Source of the DNA: a virus
Strand: one strand, 5' to 3'
Virus record (IMG/VR): IMGVR_UViG_3300021957_000261
Span: 1-25,929 of that record
DNA length: 25,929 nt
The notes below the pieces were generated by a model. The model did no database searches and was not told the DNA's origin. It worked only from the letters and a program-made list of their open reading frames with translations. Made by a program: the position numbers and the translations under genes. How positions within the stretch are numbered: position 1 is the stretch's first letter; every line of letters starts with the position of its first letter. Shown here piece after piece: positions 1,987 to 15,266 of this stretch.

Positions 1987-4248
1987 TTAACTGTCTAAAT
2001 TTGGCATTGCCATATCAAACATAGCATCTCCGATAACTTGTTGACGAGTTAGACAAAACCAATGAGATCTCTTTTTAGTACCAAAACAACTACGATCTTC
2101 CATCCATCTCACGTGATCAGGACGGTCTAATGCATTAGTTAATTCTTGACCTAATTCCTGTTTCATTACTAATTTTATTTGCTTATTATTAGGGTCGTTT
2201 TTATACTTCCAATTACAGGCTCTTTTAATAGACTTACAATCAAACCAGTATTCATCCTCTTCTGGAAAGGCTTCAAAGAAATCTCCTGCTGCATCCATAA
2301 TAGCCTCATAGGTACTTGATTTATTTAGAGACTTTACAAATTGTTTAAGGTCAGTTTCATACTCGGATGGATTAAAGTAAAGACGGTGTGTTGTGTCTAA
2401 TTGCACTTGGCCTCTCTCATTCAGTTTAGTCTTTAGAGTAGGTACGATGTTTTTAATTAAGTAGTCTACAAAATGTCCCATTTCCTTCTGTATTTGTCCA
2501 TAATAATTTGCCACTTTATTCTTAGGCTCTTGATTTACTTCGACAAACCAAATACGTGAAGCTGATCCACTTACAGGTGCACTATCCCAATCATTTGATG
2601 TAAACATAAACTTACAGTGAATTGGAGACTCATACTTTTTCCCATACTTAGGATTAACCCATTGTGTATCAAATTCAGTAGTCCAATCCTTTAAGTTTGA
2701 CATTACTTCTTTTGGTTGCTTCCAGTTACCTGCCTCTTCAACTACTACTAATTGACTAGCTCCTAAGAAATCAGTAAAGTCAGATTCTAGAGCTTTACAT
2801 GAAACCTTTCTAGTTGCTTGAAGACCAACTAAGTATTTAAAGATAGCGACTACCGCAGACTTACCTTTATCTTCTGGTCCAATAAACCATAAGTTAGGTA
2901 GTTTAGCTTCAGGGTATGCAATTAAGATAGCACAGTACTGAAGTATTAGAGCATATTGATTACCGAAGCCATGACGTAGACCACCCTCGATCGTATCCCA
3001 TTCACCTGGTTGAGCTTTCCATGTGGGACGTGTAAATATATTACGTGTCTTACCATCTATGCCCAGATCGCGTGGAAACTCGTTAGAACAATAATCAGGC
3101 TTATAGCCAAACTTATCATATGATCTTGATGGTATAGCACGCGAACCATAGAATTTCTCAAAGATAGCTTTAGTCCATGGTATTAGATTATCAGTAACTG
3201 AATCCACTTTAAAATATTCAGTACCTACTATTTCATAACGACTAACATCTTCTGGACGCGCTTCAATTTTTTCTACATCAATACCTTCACGTTTATATGA
3301 TTGACGACGTATGTGGAGAGTTTCATCCTCATCTTGTTGTCTGTAGAATTCTCTACGCTCTTCCATAGTAGGTACATATATATGCTCGCCCTGTTTAACA
3401 GTTTGCTCAGCACCCTTTATTGGCCCATTCTCATGTATATGTCGCATCTCTGACTGAAAGTACTCACGTATCTCATCCGCTTGCATACCGCATCGAAGTA
3501 ATTGACATGCCATTGCAAATTGATAGTTATAGTTACCTTCATCATATGCAGGTTGCTTTGACATATAATACTTAAGCACCCAATCTATTTTAAGTCGATT
3601 ATCAGCGGTAGAATAAGTACCAACATAATCAGTTCTTGTAGTTGGTGTTTCTACATATTCCATAACATCTATCTCATGTTTTGCTAACCACTCATCTATT
3701 AGTTTAACAGAGACTCTACCTTTTACTTGAGCTACTTTCTGTACACGATCATGTACATTTGGCTTCTTCTTTACTAATTCATCTTTAGTGTTTACACCCC
3801 ATGGTCCACGAGTAAATCGACCAGGATCTTTACAAGCCACATCGATGTCAGCACCATACTTTAAGAGTCCATCACGTATAGCTTTAAAGTATGCAGTATA
3901 CAGAGAACGCTCTCCGAGATCCTCCTCTAACGCTATAATAAAATGTAATGATTTACTCGCTGAATTAATAACTGCGGAATAAGGTATCTTACTGCGCTTA
4001 ATTAGATCAGCTTGTTCTCTTTGACTATGTGTGTCCATTTCAAATAAGAAGTTACTAAATCTAATAACGTTAATACCTTTACGAGTAGTTCCTTTCTTCA
4101 TAGGATTAATCGACACATACTCTTGTGATTCTGCAATTTTACTTACAGGAAATGTTTTGTTCTCATATCGACTACCCATACAGGTATACTCGCCTGAGTT
4201 GAATAGACAATCTATCCATTCTTTTGTTAATTTAGTTTCTTTATTCAT
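1987..4248 (-). CDS. AEP primase - SF3 helicase fusion (replicative primase-helicase)
   Basis: A 753-aa two-part replication protein. The N-terminal third matches the archaeo-eukaryotic primase (PrimPol) pattern: an acidic E-x-D in FLFEMDTHS (about E70, D72), an S-x-H in SKSLHF (about 100-102), and ADID followed by DPGRFTR (about 133-147, with two Arg for nucleotide binding). The C-terminal half is a superfamily 3 / D5-like helicase: Walker A GPEDKGKS near 457-464, Walker B LVVVEEAG near 500, motif C FMFTSND near 546, and a likely arginine finger in SASRIWF near 563. It should make primers and unwind DNA at the phage origin. Its start overlaps the upstream gene by 8 nt, so the two are coupled. 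In motif I the first acid is Glu rather than Asp. No DNA polymerase is seen nearby, so the phage may use another locus or the host enzyme. Confidence 0.9.
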   Translation of the reverse strand: MNKETKLTKEWIDCLFNSGEYTCMGSRYENKTFPVSKIAESQEYVSINPMKKGTTRKGINVIRFSNFLFEMDTHSQREQADLIKRSKIPYSAVINSASKSLHFIIALEEDLGERSLYTAYFKAIRDGLLKYGADIDVACKDPGRFTRGPWGVNTKDELVKKKPNVHDRVQKVAQVKGRVSVKLIDEWLAKHEIDVMEYVETPTTRTDYVGTYSTADNRLKIDWVLKYYMSKQPAYDEGNYNYQFAMACQLLRCGMQADEIREYFQSEMRHIHENGPIKGAEQTVKQGEHIYVPTMEERREFYRQQDEDETLHIRRQSYKREGIDVEKIEARPEDVSRYEIVGTEYFKVDSVTDNLIPWTKAIFEKFYGSRAIPSRSYDKFGYKPDYCSNEFPRDLGIDGKTRNIFTRPTWKAQPGEWDTIEGGLRHGFGNQYALILQYCAILIAYPEAKLPNLWFIGPEDKGKSAVVAIFKYLVGLQATRKVSCKALESDFTDFLGASQLVVVEEAGNWKQPKEVMSNLKDWTTEFDTQWVNPKYGKKYESPIHCKFMFTSNDWDSAPVSGSASRIWFVEVNQEPKNKVANYYGQIQKEMGHFVDYLIKNIVPTLKTKLNERGQVQLDTTHRLYFNPSEYETDLKQFVKSLNKSSTYEAIMDAAGDFFEAFPEEDEYWFDCKSIKRACNWKYKNDPNNKQIKLVMKQELGQELTNALDRPDHVRWMEDRSCFGTKKRSHWFCLTRQQVIGDAMFDMAMPNLDS

Positions 4249-4573
4249 TTGTGATCATTTGTTTATATGTTGCAACTACTAACTCTATCTCTTCAAATTT
4301 TGTTTTAATGTATTTTGCAAGAGATGAATCATAATCAGTGGTTAGAAGGTCACCTACTAAACTATGTAAATCAGTCATCATTCTTTTTACTGAATCTTTT
4401 TTAATTCCTAAAATATAATCGTCATGTATATCTGGTCGTTTTTCTATAAAATGTAAATTCTCAACTATTTTATCTTCAAAGCTTTGCATATAGAATTTCC
4501 AATACTTTTGGTCTTTTGGACTATAGAGTGCATTGATAACCTCGTTGTCGAAATGTAATGATTTATACTGCAT
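4241..4573 (-). CDS. hypothetical protein, 110 aa
   Basis: An intact frame between the winged-helix gene (2-nt gap) and the primase-helicase (8-nt overlap), all on the minus strand. The protein is mostly helical and charged, with an aromatic N-terminal part (KYWKFYMQSFEDKIVENLHF) and no metal or nucleotide motif. It is not recognised. Its coupling to the primase suggests an accessory replication role such as a loader or modulator, but nothing in the sequence shows this directly. Confidence 0.75.
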   Translation of the reverse strand: MQYKSLHFDNEVINALYSPKDQKYWKFYMQSFEDKIVENLHFIEKRPDIHDDYILGIKKDSVKRMMTDLHSLVGDLLTTDYDSSLAKYIKTKFEEIELVVATYKQMITNE

Positions 4574-4575
4574 GA

Positions 4576-4977
4576 TTATTGGTTTTTAAATTTAGTTAGT
4601 AAATATCCTGGTTCAAACGGTGCTCTCATAATTGCACCAGACTCCATGCCTTTAGAGATAACTCTCTTAACACTCGATGTACTAATACTACATGCTTCTG
4701 CAATTGCATTAACAGATTGTGGCCATGTAGATCTGTGATGCATAAAAAGCAAGACTGCTTTCTCATACTGATTTAGATCTGACTCATAAATGAAGTCTTG
4801 TTCTTCTGAGATTGAATCACCTCGTTTAGGATCAAACTCTTTGACTTCTTTTAGTTTAGGTTCCATCATAGGCTGCATAGCTCTATGTAATTCTGATCTA
4901 AGTCCTTCGATAGAAGCAATAAGATCTTGTTTTGTGGTTACTCCATCTAAGAAGTAATTGATTTCTTGTTCGTTCAT
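4576..4977 (-). CDS. winged-helix DNA-binding protein, first gene of replication operon
   Basis: A 133-aa protein. The C-terminal half (about residues 70-128) reads as a winged helix: NQYEKAVLLFMHHRSTWPQS, then NAIAEACSISTSSVKRVISK as helix-turn-helix, then a wing region GAIMRAPFEPGYLL. This resembles the helix-turn-helix domain used by phage replication initiators and replisome organisers. The N-terminal half is charged and probably a flexible or oligomerisation segment. It is the first gene after a promoter-like site (5018-5049) and directly precedes the primase-helicase unit, consistent with a role in origin binding or operon control. A transcription regulator is the main alternative. Confidence 0.75.
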   Translation of the reverse strand: MNEQEINYFLDGVTTKQDLIASIEGLRSELHRAMQPMMEPKLKEVKEFDPKRGDSISEEQDFIYESDLNQYEKAVLLFMHHRSTWPQSVNAIAEACSISTSSVKRVISKGMESGAIMRAPFEPGYLLTKFKNQ

Positions 4978-4999
4978 AATTTAAAATTGTTTTTATTTT

Positions 5000-5015
5000 G
5001 TAACTTCGTTGTTAC
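5000..5015 (-). other. small stem-loop in leader of the replication operon
   Basis: GTAAC and GTTAC pair as a 5-bp stem around a 6-nt loop in the predicted 5' leader, about 23 nt before the 4977 start codon. It may protect the mRNA end or affect translation. It is short and could be chance. Confidence 0.3.
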
Positions 5016-5017
5016 AT

Positions 5018-5049
5018 CTGTTATACTTTATATATTGACATAGTTTCAA
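5018..5049 (-). promoter_or_regulatory. predicted promoter of the replication operon
   Basis: On the minus strand a T-run leads into TTGAAAC (TTG at 5049-5047), then 21 nt, then TATAACAG (5025-5018). The spacing fits the Bacteroidota TTG...TAnnTTTG layout, though the -7 box is imperfect. The same TTTTTTTGAAAC start and 21-nt spacing recur at the minus-strand small-RNA promoter near 5245. A TGTCAAT motif within the spacer is also found in the plus-island promoters. Confidence 0.5.
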
Positions 5050-5117
5050 AAAAAAGACAGATTTCTAAAAAAAGATTACTTTATGTACTTTTTGTTCTAA
5101 TTATGGTCCTTAGAGTA

Positions 5118-5209
5118 CAAAAAAAGGGGCTGGAAACATGAAATCCAACCCCTTCTAAAATCAATAAAAAATTATATTATGACTACAGTAAGTCCTCACA
5201 AAACCGTAA
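5118..5209 (-). ncRNA. candidate minus-strand small RNA (~90 nt)
   Basis: There is no gene-sized frame between the promoter-like site at 5245-5213 (TTG, 21 nt, TATAATAAG) and the strong minus-strand terminator at 5154-5119. Transcription between them would give an RNA of about 90 nt containing a small GACT/AGTC hairpin and the terminator hairpin. The terminator cannot easily belong to the fibre gene upstream, because that gene has its own terminator at 5391-5360. Function unknown; a short peptide leader cannot be excluded. Confidence 0.45.
5119..5154 (-). terminator. Rho-independent terminator, minus strand
   Basis: On the minus strand AAGGGGTTGG and CCAGCCCCTT form a 10-bp stem (one U-G pair) with an 11-nt loop, followed by seven T. 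On the plus strand the same position is a C-A mismatch, so the hairpin is built for the minus strand. Confidence 0.8.
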
Positions 5210-5212
5210 TCA

Positions 5213-5266
5213 CTTATTATATATCACACTCTTAATTTGTTTCAAAAAAATGTAGATACATATTAG
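5213..5266. promoter_or_regulatory. overlapping divergent promoters sharing TTGTTTCAA
   Basis: The nine bases TTGTTTCAA at 5237-5245 carry a TTG for the plus strand (5237-5239) and, as CAA, a TTG for the minus strand (5245-5243). Rightward, 19 nt later is CATATTAG (5259-5266), like the TATATTAG of the plus-island promoters. Leftward, 21 nt later is TATAATAAG (5221-5213). Each points at a predicted small RNA ending in a terminator. Confidence 0.45.
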
Positions 5267-5355
5267 GTAGTGGCGTTATTATTATGTTTCTATTTTTATT
5301 TTCTTTTAGCCACTACTAAGCCCCTAGTTATTGCCATTTCTAGGGGCTTTCTTTT
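5267..5355 (+). ncRNA. candidate plus-strand structured small RNA (~85 nt)
   Basis: A hairpin with arms GTAGTGGC (5267-5274) and GCCACTAC (5309-5316) closes a T-rich loop, and is followed by a one-nt gap and a perfect terminator hairpin (5318-5349) with a T-run. A promoter-like CATATTAG ends just before the first arm. Two hairpins packed end to end, the second a terminator, is the layout of a free-standing bacterial small RNA. The loop contains an 11-codon frame (MFLFLFSFSHY) without a clear ribosome-binding context, so a leader peptide is possible but less likely. Confidence 0.5.
5318..5355 (+). terminator. Rho-independent terminator, plus strand
   Basis: AAGCCCCTAG and CTAGGGGCTT form a perfect 10-bp stem with a 12-nt loop, followed by TCTTTT on the plus strand. 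No plus-strand protein gene lies upstream, which is the main argument for a plus-strand small RNA here. Confidence 0.85.
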
Positions 5356-5359
5356 GCAT

Positions 5360-5391
5360 AAAAAAGAGGGCCCCCATTTCTGAGAGCCCTC
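5360..5391 (-). terminator. Rho-independent terminator after the fibre genes
   Basis: On the minus strand GAGGGCTCTC and GGGGGCCCTC pair over 10 bp (with U-G pairs) around the loop AGAAAT, followed by six T. It sits about 45 nt past the stop of the 541-aa fibre gene and should end the structural operon. Confidence 0.8.
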
Positions 5392-5436
5392 GGCCTAAAT
5401 AAACTTAATAACAGCGCAGCTATTAGTTTACATCCA

Positions 5437-7062
5437 TTAGTTTATTTTTCTTAAAATAGTTCCATAATTAGTTACTGAACCTGTTGTTGAATCATTGTAA
5501 GCTTGGAAGTAAAAGTATTGTGTTACTGACCAATCAATTGTTTGTACTTCTACAGGATCTCCTGATCTTACTGTTTCATTTCCTGTTTCATTTGGTGTAC
5601 CATATGTATAAACCGCAGTACCTGCAGCAGTGATAAATAGTGTTTTTTGATAGTATGTTACTCCATTACTACTAGACTGTAATCCTGCTTGTTGTTTAGC
5701 AGAAGCATCTCCTACTACTGCTTGACCTACGGTCTGTGATTGTTCACTAAACCAATAAGATTCATAACATGTATTATTAAGAGTATCTCTATTCTCAAAA
5801 GATCTAAATTCTAAGATATCACCATTACCAAATGTATTAGCTGGTATAGTAACTACTGCGTAACAATTATCAGCCTGAGCCGTGTTAGGTACAGTAAATT
5901 GAGGTAGCTCAAAACTAACTATTCCACCACCACCTCCACCGATTGGTGTACCGTTGATGGCTAATTCAGAATTATTAGTTACTGTTACTTCTGATGAAGT
6001 TCCATCAGGTGATAACATTGTAATACCATTACCTCCTAATGCTGCTCCATCTGGTGCAACAATTTTAAGTGCTCTTACGTGTGTTGTATCTGCGGTATCA
6101 GCGGTTACTTGTCTTCCCATTGCAACTGCACCTGCTTGAGCAGCCGATGTTTGTTGTCCGAAAGCTACAGCTCCATCTCCTGATGCTGCTGAAGTTCTAC
6201 CGAATGCTATTGCGTATGTGCTAGTTGCTTCTGCGTATTGTCCAAATGCTGCAGCGGAAGTTTGAGTAGCTTGAGCATCATCTCCATATGCCATTGATTC
6301 TCCACCAGATGCTAAAGCATTTTTACCTATAGCAATAGAGTTAAGTCCACTTGCAGTGGAGTCTTGACCTACAGCTACGGCTCCTTGTGCGCTAGCTTCT
6401 GCTTGATATCCTACCGCAGTACTTAATGATGCAGTTGCATCAGTGTTATTACCTAAGGCTACAGATTGTTCACCTGCAGAATTAGCACTATGTCCTAAGG
6501 CTACACTAGATGTTCCGCCAGCATCGGCAGCACGTCCAACTGCGGTTGATGATAGTGCATTAGATAAAGAATCACGTCCTATAGCTAAAGTACCTGCATT
6601 ACCAGCAGCGGTTGCATTTAATCCAATTGCCATTTCTTCTCCAGATGCTGAACATGTAGCACCGTTACCGATAGCAAGACCTTGAGCTCCTGGTGCTGCA
6701 GCGTCTTTACCTATGGCAATACTTTCTGAATTACTTGCAATTGCATTATCACCTAATGCGATAGAGTTATTTCCTGATGCATTTGCAGCGGTAGTTGTTA
6801 AACTGGCAGCCGATTGCATTGAGTCAGTACCTGTACCACTTTCTAAACCTGCCGAAGCAGATGGTAAACCATTTACTGTTGCTCCTGTAAAATCTACAGT
6901 ACCACTAGAAAACTTAGTTTCTGTGTTACTCATTTCCATATTAGTAGCATTACCAGCACCGTCAGTTATTGCTTTTGCCGTTGCGGTAATGTTACCATTG
7001 TCGTCTGTTTTTAATAGCGCACCGAACGACTGATCTATTTGTGCATTTTGTAATGTTGCCAT
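5437..7062 (-). CDS. YadA-like tail fibre / receptor-binding protein
   Basis: A 541-aa fibre-type protein and the last gene of the structural cluster before a strong terminator. Residues 1-70 form an N-terminal domain (starts MATLQNAQIDQSFGALLKTD) shared in style with the next fibre, likely for attachment to the tail. From the hinge SGTGTDSMQSA (about 74-84) to about residue 320 there are many ~14-residue repeats of the type S-I-A-I/L-G-x-x-A-x-A, the left-handed beta-roll repeat of YadA/Hep_Hag heads, which trimerise. After NGTPIGGGGGG a separate globular C-terminal domain of about 165 residues follows (Cys, Tyr and Trp rich), the best candidate for the receptor-binding tip. No signal peptide or membrane anchor is present, so it is a phage fibre and not a cell-surface autotransporter. 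Confidence 0.8.
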   Translation of the reverse strand: MATLQNAQIDQSFGALLKTDDNGNITATAKAITDGAGNATNMEMSNTETKFSSGTVDFTGATVNGLPSASAGLESGTGTDSMQSAASLTTTAANASGNNSIALGDNAIASNSESIAIGKDAAAPGAQGLAIGNGATCSASGEEMAIGLNATAAGNAGTLAIGRDSLSNALSSTAVGRAADAGGTSSVALGHSANSAGEQSVALGNNTDATASLSTAVGYQAEASAQGAVAVGQDSTASGLNSIAIGKNALASGGESMAYGDDAQATQTSAAAFGQYAEATSTYAIAFGRTSAASGDGAVAFGQQTSAAQAGAVAMGRQVTADTADTTHVRALKIVAPDGAALGGNGITMLSPDGTSSEVTVTNNSELAINGTPIGGGGGGIVSFELPQFTVPNTAQADNCYAVVTIPANTFGNGDILEFRSFENRDTLNNTCYESYWFSEQSQTVGQAVVGDASAKQQAGLQSSSNGVTYYQKTLFITAAGTAVYTYGTPNETGNETVRSGDPVEVQTIDWSVTQYFYFQAYNDSTTGSVTNYGTILRKIN

Positions 7063-7086
7063 ATTGTTATATATTTAATTTTTTTA

Positions 7087-8634
7087 TTATACTATTCTAA
7101 TCTTTAAATCACCTGCATTATGATATACACCACCTAAAGGTATTCCACCCGCAGCCGCTGCAGTATCATCTGCATAATTTATATTTGCATAATCTAAGAT
7201 TTGTAATTTATCCATTGTTACAGTATCCGCAGTAACTGCATTGATACCTGAACCAATTGCTACTGCTCCATCAGCGGTTGCTTGTGCAAGTTTTCCTATT
7301 GCGATAGCTCCAATTGCTGTAGCGTCAGCTTCTTTACCAACTGCTATGGCATCTACCGCCGTTGCAGAAGAACCATATCCACCTACTACTGTAGCACCTT
7401 CAGCGGTTGCTTCACTAAATGCTCCGAATACACATGAGCTAAATGCTGATGCTGTTGAACTAGCGCCAACTACTACTGATCTACTACCTGATGCATTAGC
7501 ACTATCACCAATGGCAACTGTACGAGATCCAGTTGCTTGTGCTTCATTACCTACAGCTACATCTTTTTCATTTGTAGCATCAGTATTAAAACCAATTGCA
7601 ATGTTACTTCTAGCAAAAGCATTATCTCCACCTGCATTGGCTGTATTACCTATTGCGATATTATTAGCACTTGATGCAATTGAACCATCACCTAAAGCAA
7701 TAGTATCTGCTTCAGATGCATTTGCAGCCACAGTAGTTAAAGTAGAAGCTGATTGCATTGAATCAGTTCCTGAACCACTAATTAAACCAGCAGCAAGTCC
7801 ACCTCCACCGATTGGAGTTGAGTCAATTTGTAAGGTACCAGAAGCATCGATGTTTATTCTTCTATCTGTTCCACCTGCATCTGACATAATAATACCACCA
7901 GCAGTTGGTGTTGAATCTGTTTGTGTTTCTAGTGCTTTTACTGAAACTGTATCTATAGTTGAGGCAGTTACATCGTAACCTAATGCAACAGCTCCAGTTG
8001 CATTAGCAATAGTTCTATTTCCTACTGCGGTAGATTGAGTTGCTGAAGCATCAGCGCCATCACCTAATGCGGTACTATTTGAACCAGTAGCATTAGACTG
8101 ACCACCAAGTGCAACACTTTCATTTCCAGTACCTTGTGCAGAAATACCTACAGCTAAACTTCTACCTGAACCACCATCAGTGTCAGGTCCTATTGCCATC
8201 CCGTTACCTGCATTAGCATTATTCCCAATAGCCAATTTACCTGCGCCAGCAGCAATAGTATTAGCGCCTATTGCAATAGCACCTACTGATTGATTAGCTA
8301 CAGCATTTTTACCAATAGCAATTTGGTCTGTGTTAGCAGTTGAAGCACCATCGCCTAGAGCAATTGATTGAGCACCCGCTGCACTTGCAGCATTAGTAGT
8401 TAATGTATCCGCAGATTTTATTGAGTCTGTGCCAGCACCTGCAACCATACCACCTGGATTGATACCAGTTACTGTACCTGTAAAGTTAACAGTTGAAGAA
8501 CTAATTTGAATTGGTAGTACGCCACCGTTACCATCTTCTAGATTTTTAAGTGTACCATCAATTGGTTGTTCGTCTGAGGTTTTAATTAAACCTTCGTACG
8601 TGTCTTTAATTTTTTGATTTACTAAACTTGACAT
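7087..8634 (-). CDS. YadA-like tail fibre with internally duplicated module
   Basis: A 515-aa paralogue of the neighbouring fibre, 24 nt upstream of it. Residues 1-60 (MSSLVNQKIKDTYEGLIKTS) are an N-terminal domain. Two YadA-type beta-roll blocks follow, each opened by the same hinge: GAGTDSIKSADTLTT at about 66 and GSGTDSMQSASTLTT at about 277. The first block ends DSTPIGGGG, matching the end of the single block in the downstream gene. The C-terminus YHNAGDLKIRIV resembles short fibre ends common in marine phages. It lacks the large globular tip of the 541-aa protein, so it may form a shaft or a second fibre type. Expected to be a trimer on the virion. Confidence 0.8.
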   Translation of the reverse strand: MSSLVNQKIKDTYEGLIKTSDEQPIDGTLKNLEDGNGGVLPIQISSSTVNFTGTVTGINPGGMVAGAGTDSIKSADTLTTNAASAAGAQSIALGDGASTANTDQIAIGKNAVANQSVGAIAIGANTIAAGAGKLAIGNNANAGNGMAIGPDTDGGSGRSLAVGISAQGTGNESVALGGQSNATGSNSTALGDGADASATQSTAVGNRTIANATGAVALGYDVTASTIDTVSVKALETQTDSTPTAGGIIMSDAGGTDRRINIDASGTLQIDSTPIGGGGLAAGLISGSGTDSMQSASTLTTVAANASEADTIALGDGSIASSANNIAIGNTANAGGDNAFARSNIAIGFNTDATNEKDVAVGNEAQATGSRTVAIGDSANASGSRSVVVGASSTASAFSSCVFGAFSEATAEGATVVGGYGSSATAVDAIAVGKEADATAIGAIAIGKLAQATADGAVAIGSGINAVTADTVTMDKLQILDYANINYADDTAAAAGGIPLGGVYHNAGDLKIRIV

Positions 8635-10123: not shown

Positions 10124-10717
10124 TTAGTTGCACGAGGAACAATCGGGGTCACAGTCTGTTCCGCAGTCCGCATATATCCAAAGGTTGTTTTGATTTCTTA
10201 ATAGTGGTACATTAGTTTGTAGTCCACTAAAATATTGATCTGTTTTATCTGGCATCATACCATCTGTTCCAGGATTTGTATACTCTGGGAACATACCAGG
10301 ATTATCTCTAAAGAACTCTACTAAACGAGTAGCATAAAACTCTGCTGTGTCTAATACAGTTCCTCTAAGGTATCTCAGTTCTTCTAAGGTGGTAGGTGCA
10401 GTCTCTTCTGACGTACCATTAACAATACCTTGATTAACTACTTTATATTTAATACTAGGCAAGATCATGTATAAAGCGTATTGCATTAGTGTTTTACCAA
10501 CATAATCATTTAGTAATAACTCTTCATCCGCATTTAAATCATTAGCTATTATACCAGCTTGTAATCTTGCATATAATTTAGATCCAACCAAATTTTGAAT
10601 GTAGATATCACTCGCTTGTAATATATGTGGTGTAATCTCATTTAGTCTAACATTGTCATCTAACTGAGTCCATTGTTTTAGTCTTTGTTCTGAGACTAGA
10701 AGTACTTGCTTCGCCAT
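10124..10717 (-). CDS. head-tail connector / adaptor protein
   Basis: A 197-aa, largely helical protein, directly downstream of the portal gene (1-nt gap). The N-terminal section LLVSEQRLKQWTQLDDNVRL and ASDIYIQNLVGSKLYARLQA is typical of head-tail connector proteins in Bacteroidota phages (DUF6712-like). These bind beneath the portal and pass the signal to the tail. An unusual feature is a Cys-rich end, DCGTDCDPDCSSCN, with four Cys in the last 13 residues, which could bind a metal or cross-link. The family is assigned from sequence style and position, not from a search. Confidence 0.65.
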   Translation of the reverse strand: MAKQVLLVSEQRLKQWTQLDDNVRLNEITPHILQASDIYIQNLVGSKLYARLQAGIIANDLNADEELLLNDYVGKTLMQYALYMILPSIKYKVVNQGIVNGTSEETAPTTLEELRYLRGTVLDTAEFYATRLVEFFRDNPGMFPEYTNPGTDGMMPDKTDQYFSGLQTNVPLLRNQNNLWIYADCGTDCDPDCSSCN

Positions 10718-10718
10718 A

Positions 10719-11867
10719 TTAATCGTTTGCTATATTTGTTATGTCTTCTTCAACAGCAATATCATCTGCATCAGTACCAATAATCATAGGCACTGGTTCC
10801 ACAGCTAATGTTACATTTAAGCCATATAAGTTTAATAAGTAACCAAAAGTATCGATTACTTTAGTTTGTTTTGGTCTTACAACTGAATTCATAAAGTGTG
10901 AATAAGCTGTAATAATCTCATCAGCATTACTAGAGAAACCAGATGCATCTACAACTCCCAACAATTTTGGAGAAGTCACCCTATGTGCGGTGAGTATACG
11001 TGATACAGTTCTAGCATCAACCAGTAAATAATAGTCATCATTTGCTGATTCTATTGGTGTTACTTCCATTTCTTCACCAGGTCTAGAGAAACCTAAGAAG
11101 AATCTACCAGCATTCTCTTCGCCAGTAAATGTGTTCTCTATTTCTCTATAGATATCTGCTCTTTCCTCAGGATTAGGAATACCATTTCTGAATTGAATAA
11201 ACATAGATGGAGATAAACCGTTAGAGATGTTCGCGTTGTGGAATCTAGCGATACGCGCATCAAGTTGGATATCGTTCATAGCCGATACATACGGTGGCAG
11301 TGGATAGACATCTTGACCTGGCTGATATGATTTACAGTAGTATATTTGTGATGCGTCATCACCTTTAGTGTTAGTTACACTAAATGCAGTGTATTCTACT
11401 GGTTTGTATTTTCTAATAGCAGTCCAATCAGATGAATAGTAATAACTTGTAATCTTATCTTCATCATTTGGAATAGCAGCTCTTACATTAGCAAAAGGTA
11501 AATGATACATTTCCGCTATGCGATTACCTTCTTTGTTCCAGATCACATTCATAGCATACCCACCGAATAGTGTGTAGTCTAATGCAATCTTACTAAAGAC
11601 TTCGTTAATAGTCTCACCATCAGAGTTTATATACTCTGTACCGTAGTCTATAATACCTTCACCAACAATACCATCTCTAATTGCATTAATACATGTAGCG
11701 TTAATTGCTGATGTATCATATAATCCTATAATAGTTTGTGGAAATAAGTTATCGCCACCAAATCTCATATAGTCTTTACCTCTTACTTCAGAGATAACTG
11801 GTAATTCTAGCGCTGTAAAGGCTTGTCCTTTAATAGAGTATAAACTCTCGGGATTTCTTGTGCTCAT
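10719..11867 (-). CDS. portal protein
   Basis: A 382-aa protein of the size of compact phage portals. It starts with a short N-terminal arm, then VISEVRGKDYMRFGGDNLFP, a region conserved in portals of Bacteroidota phages. CINAIRDGIVGEG and a mixed core follow, then a helical stem/clip area (RTVSRILTAHRVTSPKLLGV) and a C-terminal helix region. Portals form the dodecameric ring at one capsid vertex through which DNA is packaged and ejected. The gene lies between a small 138-aa structural gene (8-nt gap) and the connector. Its place downstream of capsid and tail-tube genes is unusual, since portals are normally upstream of the capsid gene beside the terminase. Confidence 0.8.
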   Translation of the reverse strand: MSTRNPESLYSIKGQAFTALELPVISEVRGKDYMRFGGDNLFPQTIIGLYDTSAINATCINAIRDGIVGEGIIDYGTEYINSDGETINEVFSKIALDYTLFGGYAMNVIWNKEGNRIAEMYHLPFANVRAAIPNDEDKITSYYYSSDWTAIRKYKPVEYTAFSVTNTKGDDASQIYYCKSYQPGQDVYPLPPYVSAMNDIQLDARIARFHNANISNGLSPSMFIQFRNGIPNPEERADIYREIENTFTGEENAGRFFLGFSRPGEEMEVTPIESANDDYYLLVDARTVSRILTAHRVTSPKLLGVVDASGFSSNADEIITAYSHFMNSVVRPKQTKVIDTFGYLLNLYGLNVTLAVEPVPMIIGTDADDIAVEEDITNIAND

Positions 11868-15209: not shown

Positions 15210-15266
15210 GAAAATAAATGCTCAAATATTTTTTTATGTCAATTATTTTTCGTATATTAGTAGTAT
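15210..15266 (+). promoter_or_regulatory. plus-island promoter repeat P1
   Basis: The first of three repeats with the shared core TTTTTTTATGTCAATT, then TTTTTCG and TATATTAGTAG (TATATTAG at 15253-15260). An upstream AAAATAAA block starts 43 nt before the TATATTAG box in all three copies. It drives the GNAT gene at 15304. Confidence 0.75.

Follow-up and report, generated by a model that had tools for sequence, protein, structure and literature searches.

Two candidate small RNA genes with fixed loops at the late/early junction of a probable flavobacterial phage

The window analysed here is an entire virus record of 25,929 bases from an uncultured marine phage. Its minus strand carries the late genes, with the portal gene at 10719-11867 and the fibre proteins at 5437-8634, the final fibre protein having YadA head repeats, and the replication genes, with a primase-like protein (1987-4248) and an HTH_36 protein (4576-4977). 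A non-coding gap of 459 bp (4978-5436) lies between the fibre (late) and replication (early) operons, and the gene map agreed with the initial annotation, which had placed a pair of divergent small RNAs at this position. From the late to the early side, the gap contains the fibre-operon terminator, a plus-strand unit (about 5237-5355), a minus-strand unit (about 5250-5119), and the replication promoter and leader from 5054. A tRNA and tmRNA search of the window found none. The fibre genes (window 5437-8634 compared with the relatives L007, L024 and L084) showed large differences in length, number and repeats among otherwise close relatives, a pattern expected of receptor-binding proteins that phages swap with one another.

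We scanned the whole 25.9-kb window for intrinsic terminators, allowing loops of up to 18 and ranking the matches by our own score. Seven matches were obtained, and the three located within 275 bp at the junction ranked 1, 2 and 4 (38.6, 35.1 and 31.8), while eight dinucleotide-shuffled windows used as a control together gave one match scoring 29 or more. The cluster of three strong terminators initially described is real; a standard scan listed the fibre terminator alone of the three because its loop limit is 8. The fibre-operon terminator (minus strand, 5391-5366) has an 11 bp stem with a GAAA tetraloop and is convergent with the plus RNA. The plus-RNA terminator (plus strand, 5318-5349, with a T-rich tail to 5355), AAGCCCCTAG[TTATTGCCATTT]CTAGGGGCTT, displays the fixed loop UUAUUGCCAUUU at 5328-5339, and the gene list bears out that no plus-strand gene lies upstream of it. 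The minus-RNA terminator (minus strand, 5156-5122, with seven T ending at 5119) scored 35.1 and ranked second of the seven. A GAAA tetraloop on differing stems is common among the ordinary terminators of these phages, with at least a dozen cases; 12 of 19 crude matches read CA[GAAA]UG. Long (12-nt) fixed loops are therefore unnecessary for termination.

The minus-RNA promoter (minus strand, 5250-5216) opens with TTTTTTTGAAAC (5250-5239) and contains TTGAAA (5245-5240), 18 nt, and TATAAT (5221-5216), giving 11 of 12 sigma-70 matches and making it the top site within 4000-6500. The number of promoter-like sites in that interval was at chance level (10 found, 9.9 expected). The plus-RNA promoter (plus strand, 5237-5267), identical in L007, consists of TTGTTT (5237-5242) and GATACATATTAGG (5255-5267). 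This -10 element is weak by the sigma-70 rule and lies 2 mismatches from the family form GATATATAATANG, which, with up to 2 mismatches allowed, was found at 12 sites in the window against 7.1 expected and is hence common; a strong promoter occupies the equivalent place in relatives. The plus TTGTTT shares TTGTTTCAA with the minus -35, so the TTG boxes of the two strands do overlap as first described. The 12-mer TTTTTTTGAAAC of the minus-RNA promoter is duplicated exactly at 5054-5043, ahead of the replication operon, whose probable promoter (minus strand, 5054-5020) reads TTTTTTTGAAAC and then TATATAAAG/TATAAC, a sequence shared with L024 and relatives.

Two further elements were observed. An 18-bp palindrome, TGTAACAACGAAGTTACA, at 4999-5016 within the replication-operon leader recurs exactly in 21 of 224 loci, a figure that includes many duplicates, among them L024, L007, L077 and L163. 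It may serve as an operator, perhaps bound by the HTH_36 protein, whose gene follows immediately. The second element, a promoter-like repeat matching TATTAGTAGTATAATA with 0-2 mismatches, stands ahead of plus-strand genes at window positions 15255, 15940 and 16474 (plus strand), and repeats of this type also precede short genes in L024 (about 5340-6210). The repeat is distinct from the TTGAAAC promoter and may mark another temporal class.

The putative plus-strand small RNA (type 1; 5268-5355, about 88 nt, start approximate) would consist of two hairpins, as originally suggested. In the 5' stem-loop (5267-5316), GTAGTGGC (5267-5274) is complemented by GCCACTAC (5309-5316) and encloses a U-rich loop; the second hairpin is the terminator. 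The putative minus-strand small RNA (type 2; 5209-5119 on the minus strand, about 90 nt, start approximate) begins with a hairpin at 5212-5180, in which the stem (5212-5204 with 5188-5180) presents the loop UUGUGAGGACUU at 5201-5190. Both folds were more stable than those of shuffled sequences, with z values of -5.32 for the plus RNA and -4.07 for the minus RNA and none of 200 shuffles as good. The closest relatives with the whole gap, L007 and L008, are 87% identical over 290 nt and conserve the plus RNA, the plan of which is common to the relatives. In L007 both plus-RNA stems are identical to those of the window and the differences are confined to loops and linkers, and the minus RNA is conserved in L007, L077 and L084. 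An 11-codon frame in the plus RNA was considered as a small protein and set aside because, judged by eye, its length was not kept in L007.

Annotated phage records gave no DNA match to the window. The portal protein matched mostly Nonlabens and Bacteroides phages at 23-29% identity, and the genome collection gave matches only to three phage contigs (L183, L185 and L187), each about 24 kb long, that are binned with the 2.3-Mb Flavobacteriaceae MAG FRAM18_bin221. Either that host carries several such phages or the contigs were wrongly binned. The window belongs to a group of uncultured phages that are probably flavobacterial. Relatives were gathered by scanning viral contigs for the HTH protein, the primase, the fibre, gp197 (10124-10717) and the promoter pattern. 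In these relatives, the junction unit comprises a TTGAAAC-N-GATATATAA promoter, an RNA of about 88-157 nt (a low-scoring L042 match was dropped from this length set as a coding match) and an intrinsic terminator, and in the mapped examples it lies beyond the final late gene.

Under a strict rule, TGAAAC had to be followed after 10-20 nt by [GA]ATATATAA, with a terminator no more than 220 nt further on. This recovered the unit downstream of gp197 in 16 of the 22 distinct relatives whose sequence extends over 6 kb beyond gp197 and in 28 of the 44 extending over 3 kb, a count that includes the window through its minus RNA only. Relatives were taken as distinct when they differed in a 300-nt stretch at gp197, so that near relatives such as L084/L086 and L109/L110 were counted separately; the duplicate loci L001-L005 and L016-L023 were skipped here and in the counts of GCCATT hairpins and loop hexamers below. 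Ten records lacking the strict unit were inspected. Five of them (L102, L135, L149, L165 and L171) contain the type-1 loop hairpin; in L095, L152 and L159, junction terminators are present and the type-1 loop was not seen, and inspection of L092 and L131 revealed no clear junction. In L102, L135, L149 and L165 the loop-bearing RNA comes after the final late gene, shares its strand and lacks the TGAAAC form of promoter; the hairpin there may be processed from the late mRNA. The cultured relative Nonlabens phage P12024S (portal identity 28.7%) holds a single copy of TTATTGCCATTT; no such RNA was found in it, a CCATT hairpin after a late gene (32319) being unconvincing.

The stems were compared in an alignment of six members (L009, L029, L169, L173, L183 and L188). 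Both helices, namely the 5' stem closing just before the terminator and the terminator stem, form in all six, with 120 of 120 cells paired, and 4 of the 20 pairs show a two-sided change. The covariation score was 0.277, compared with 0.110 in shuffles (0 of 500 as good), and structures slid by 1-3 columns retained 26-49% pairing with no two-sided change. Compensatory changes in the hairpin arms, the comparison proposed in the initial annotation, are thus present in the six aligned relatives, though the count of two-sided pairs alone was reached by 64 of 500 shuffles. As the structure was also derived from the same sequences, the covariation offers good, not overwhelming, support for the predicted stems. 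The 5' stem differs between lineages, being GUAGUGGC in the window, GUAGAUUGG in L183 and UGUCAAUC in L010, and equivalent 5' stems of different sequence occur in L009, L010, L029 and L183.

The loops behave differently from the stems. Strong hairpins were collected by requiring a stem of 9 bp or more, a loop of 8-18 nt and a stem arm with no fewer than 4 G or C. With every hairpin entered once per strand, GCCATT tied as the commonest loop hexamer (9 of 88 entries). GCCATT hairpins whose stem reaches at least 9 bp number 10; all sit at the junction, and one (L037) is a near copy of another. The 12-mer UUAUUGCCAUUU of the window plus RNA recurs on other stems in L102, L135 and L067 (0.40 expected), and UUAAGCCAUUUU was found in L084, L024, L171 and the distant relative L223 (0.42 expected). 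The type-2 12-mer, UUGUGAGGACUU, is shared by the window minus RNA, L007, L077 and L084 (0.18 expected), again on differing stems. A third fixed loop of 11 nt, UUCUUGAUCGU, occupies unrelated terminator stems at the same junction in L024 (5177-5188) and L191 (13425-13436), with 0.42 expected. These expectations were computed for about 0.96 Mb of non-redundant relatives; the MAG snippets L199-L218 entered neither count, and L219 and L224 were omitted from the base count alone. UUAUUGCCAUUU and UUGUGAGGACUU each have one further match, in the distant records P12024S and L219, and the L219 match was rejected as a chance coding match.

The placement of the loops also varies. The type-1 loop lies on the terminator of the opposite-strand RNA in the window, L007, L010 and L171 (with the variants GACCAUUUU and GCCCAUUUU in L009 and L029). 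L024, L084 and L086 carry it on the terminator of the fibre operon itself, and L102, L135, L149 and L165 on the 5' hairpin of a same-strand RNA. Transcription of the type-2 RNA would head towards the replication genes in the window and L007 and away from them in L077 and L084, and only one of the two RNAs is present in L009, L010 and L029. This variation in strand and position between phages argues against a leader or attenuator and for a self-acting element. The divergent, shared TTGTTTCAA core was seen in this clade only (the window, L007 and L008). As for the back-to-back launch of the two RNAs, central to the initial annotation, given the other arrangements of strand and position in relatives, it is not the essence of the system.

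Both RNA genes are very probably real. Each has its own promoter (the plus one weak) and its own terminator, the structure is conserved across relatives, and the proposal of two separate small RNA genes is strongly supported by the relatives' conserved promoters, compensating stems and fixed loops. That the loops are kept letter for letter on changing stems suggests that the junction RNAs are working regulatory RNAs. A regulatory switch at this position, the role initially suggested, is conjectural. We propose two small RNA genes at the late/early junction, members of a family that occurs across a group of uncultured, probably flavobacterial phages. Each RNA would have its own promoter, start in or beside a stem, continue through a U-rich single-stranded stretch and end at an intrinsic terminator, displaying a fixed loop (UU-NN-U-GCCAUUU in type 1, UUGUGAGGACUU in type 2) on a freely changing stem. 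Function would reside in the loops, which would act in trans, most probably by pairing as seeds with particular phage or host mRNAs and so blocking or altering them during infection. The DNA itself shows the anatomy, conservation, compensatory stems, fixed loops and independence of neighbours; transcription, trans action, base pairing and targets are inferences. Seed-pairing sRNAs are built in this way, with a loop on a changeable stem, a U-rich stretch and a terminator, and a protein-binding hairpin would fit too; we consider trans action by base pairing an evenly balanced proposition.

Searches for pairing partners gave little. The complement of the type-1 loop, AAAUGGC, resembles a start-codon context. 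In 10 loop/genome tests of pairing with start sites, the loops did not exceed shuffled loops in 9, the exception being L100 (3 of 200 shuffles); the window loops were matched by 17 of 200 and 88 of 200 shuffles. The best phage start-site candidate, the gene at 1574-1801 (AAAAATGGCAACAATG), was rejected, being matched by 17 of 200 shuffled loops. We also rejected a 12-nt complement of the type-1 loop inside a fibre gene (near 6645), which had no counterpart among the top matches of L056, and an 8-nt kissing interaction of the plus loop (CCAUUUCU) with the fibre terminator (AGAAAUGG), which we attribute to chance since the GAAA tetraloop is common and the pairing is not kept in L009 and L010. 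In FRAM18_bin221, the single candidate host, near-complementary sites to the loop of its phages numbered 138, compared with 140 for the control, and five near matches inspected there included none at convincing gene starts. No complementary target stretches were found near the RNAs.

These negative pairing-target searches speak for the leading alternative, that the RNAs are real and a phage or host RNA-binding protein recognises their loops, which would serve as a decoy, in RNA protection or for an antitermination factor. A fixed loop on a variable stem is equally typical of a protein-bound hairpin, and the relocation of the loop to the fibre terminator in L024, L084 and L086 would fit as well. 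However, the stem ranges from 4 to 12 bp and may be a 5' hairpin or a terminator, which a specific protein would tolerate less readily, and two or three unrelated loops occur at the same junction; we regard protein recognition as unlikely, if a serious contender. It is improbable that the units are cis elements, with the minus unit an attenuated leader of the replication operon and the plus unit a mere insulating terminator. In the window and L007 the minus unit does precede the replication genes in the same orientation, but in L077 and L084 the type-2 RNA points away from them, so that its position is not fixed. Moreover, the minus terminator is followed by a separate promoter for the replication operon, and no gene lies downstream of the opposite-strand units on the strand that they occupy.

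Still less probable is that the junction transcripts serve DNA replication, as primers or origin-activating transcription, with RNA products that have no role of their own. The junction adjoins the replication genes, and lambda pO/OOP was once regarded in this way according to PMC12197685, but the GC skew shows no origin-like turn across the junction and fixed loops would be superfluous for such a role. The least probable reading, which we consider very improbable, is that ordinary convergent terminators and chance promoter-like sites coincide here and no RNAs are made. Convergent terminators are common and promoter-like sites are at their chance number; against this stand promoters, compensatory stems and fixed loops conserved over many lineages, and GAAA-tetraloop terminators that dispense with 12-nt fixed loops. 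Base pairing in trans by the loops could also be taken further, into a modular system in which a stock of fixed loops (UUNNUGCCAUUU, UUGUGAGGACUU, UUCUUGAUCGU) is moved by flavobacterial phages between stems, strands and transcripts of the late/early junction, and the type-1 loop is antisense to host AUG contexts, for example of receptor surface transporters, shutting translation during infection as FopS does. As a whole this is improbable.

Regulatory RNAs of Bacteroidota phages are hardly described in the literature searched, and such phages occur in many marine metagenomes. A search of open-licence papers on phage small RNAs in Bacteroidetes or flavophages found no such family. Two forms of the loop family sit together in this 26-kb record, and fixed loops on interchangeable stems provide exact candidate seeds for target searches and for simple loop-swap experiments. 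To our knowledge, Bacteroidota mostly lack Hfq.

Rfam 15 at gathering scores gave no family match for the window and 13 relatives, including c4 (RF01695) and 6S-flavo (RF01685); nine weak matches (E up to 5) were far below the cut-offs. 6S-flavo is a small structured RNA of Bacteroidetes with pairing ends, and the likeness to it lies in being a small structured RNA. Unlike 6S-flavo, which Rfam did not match here, the junction RNAs have about half the length of 6S RNA and no long helix with a central bubble in their folds. Lambda OOP is a short RNA beside replication genes, transcribed against its neighbours, and the junction RNAs resemble it in being short, having their own promoter and terminator and lying beside replication genes. 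OOP is antisense to cII and encoded opposite it, whereas here the RNAs lie in a non-coding gap and no cII-like target was seen. The antisense stretches of c4 from P1 and P7 lie in hairpins. PMC12197685 gives OOP an antisense role and describes c4, likewise a phage RNA, as working by short antisense stretches; unlike c4, the junction RNAs have neither an Rfam match nor complementary target stretches found nearby. FopS sRNAs shut the translation of transporter genes in Bacteroides. The FopS/GibS sRNAs of Bacteroides thetaiotaomicron bind mRNAs near the start codon, and their family is stated to be deposited in Rfam, according to PMC11697453. They are chromosomal, with the seed in a single-stranded 5' region, whereas the junction RNAs have no Rfam match and would carry theirs in a loop. 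What the two share is a short, terminator-ended form, the bacterial phylum and, for the type-1 loop, complementarity to the AAAUGGC start-codon context. The general kind, a phage-encoded intergenic small RNA, is already known; what is unusual in this family is that fixed loops are reused on different stems and strands.
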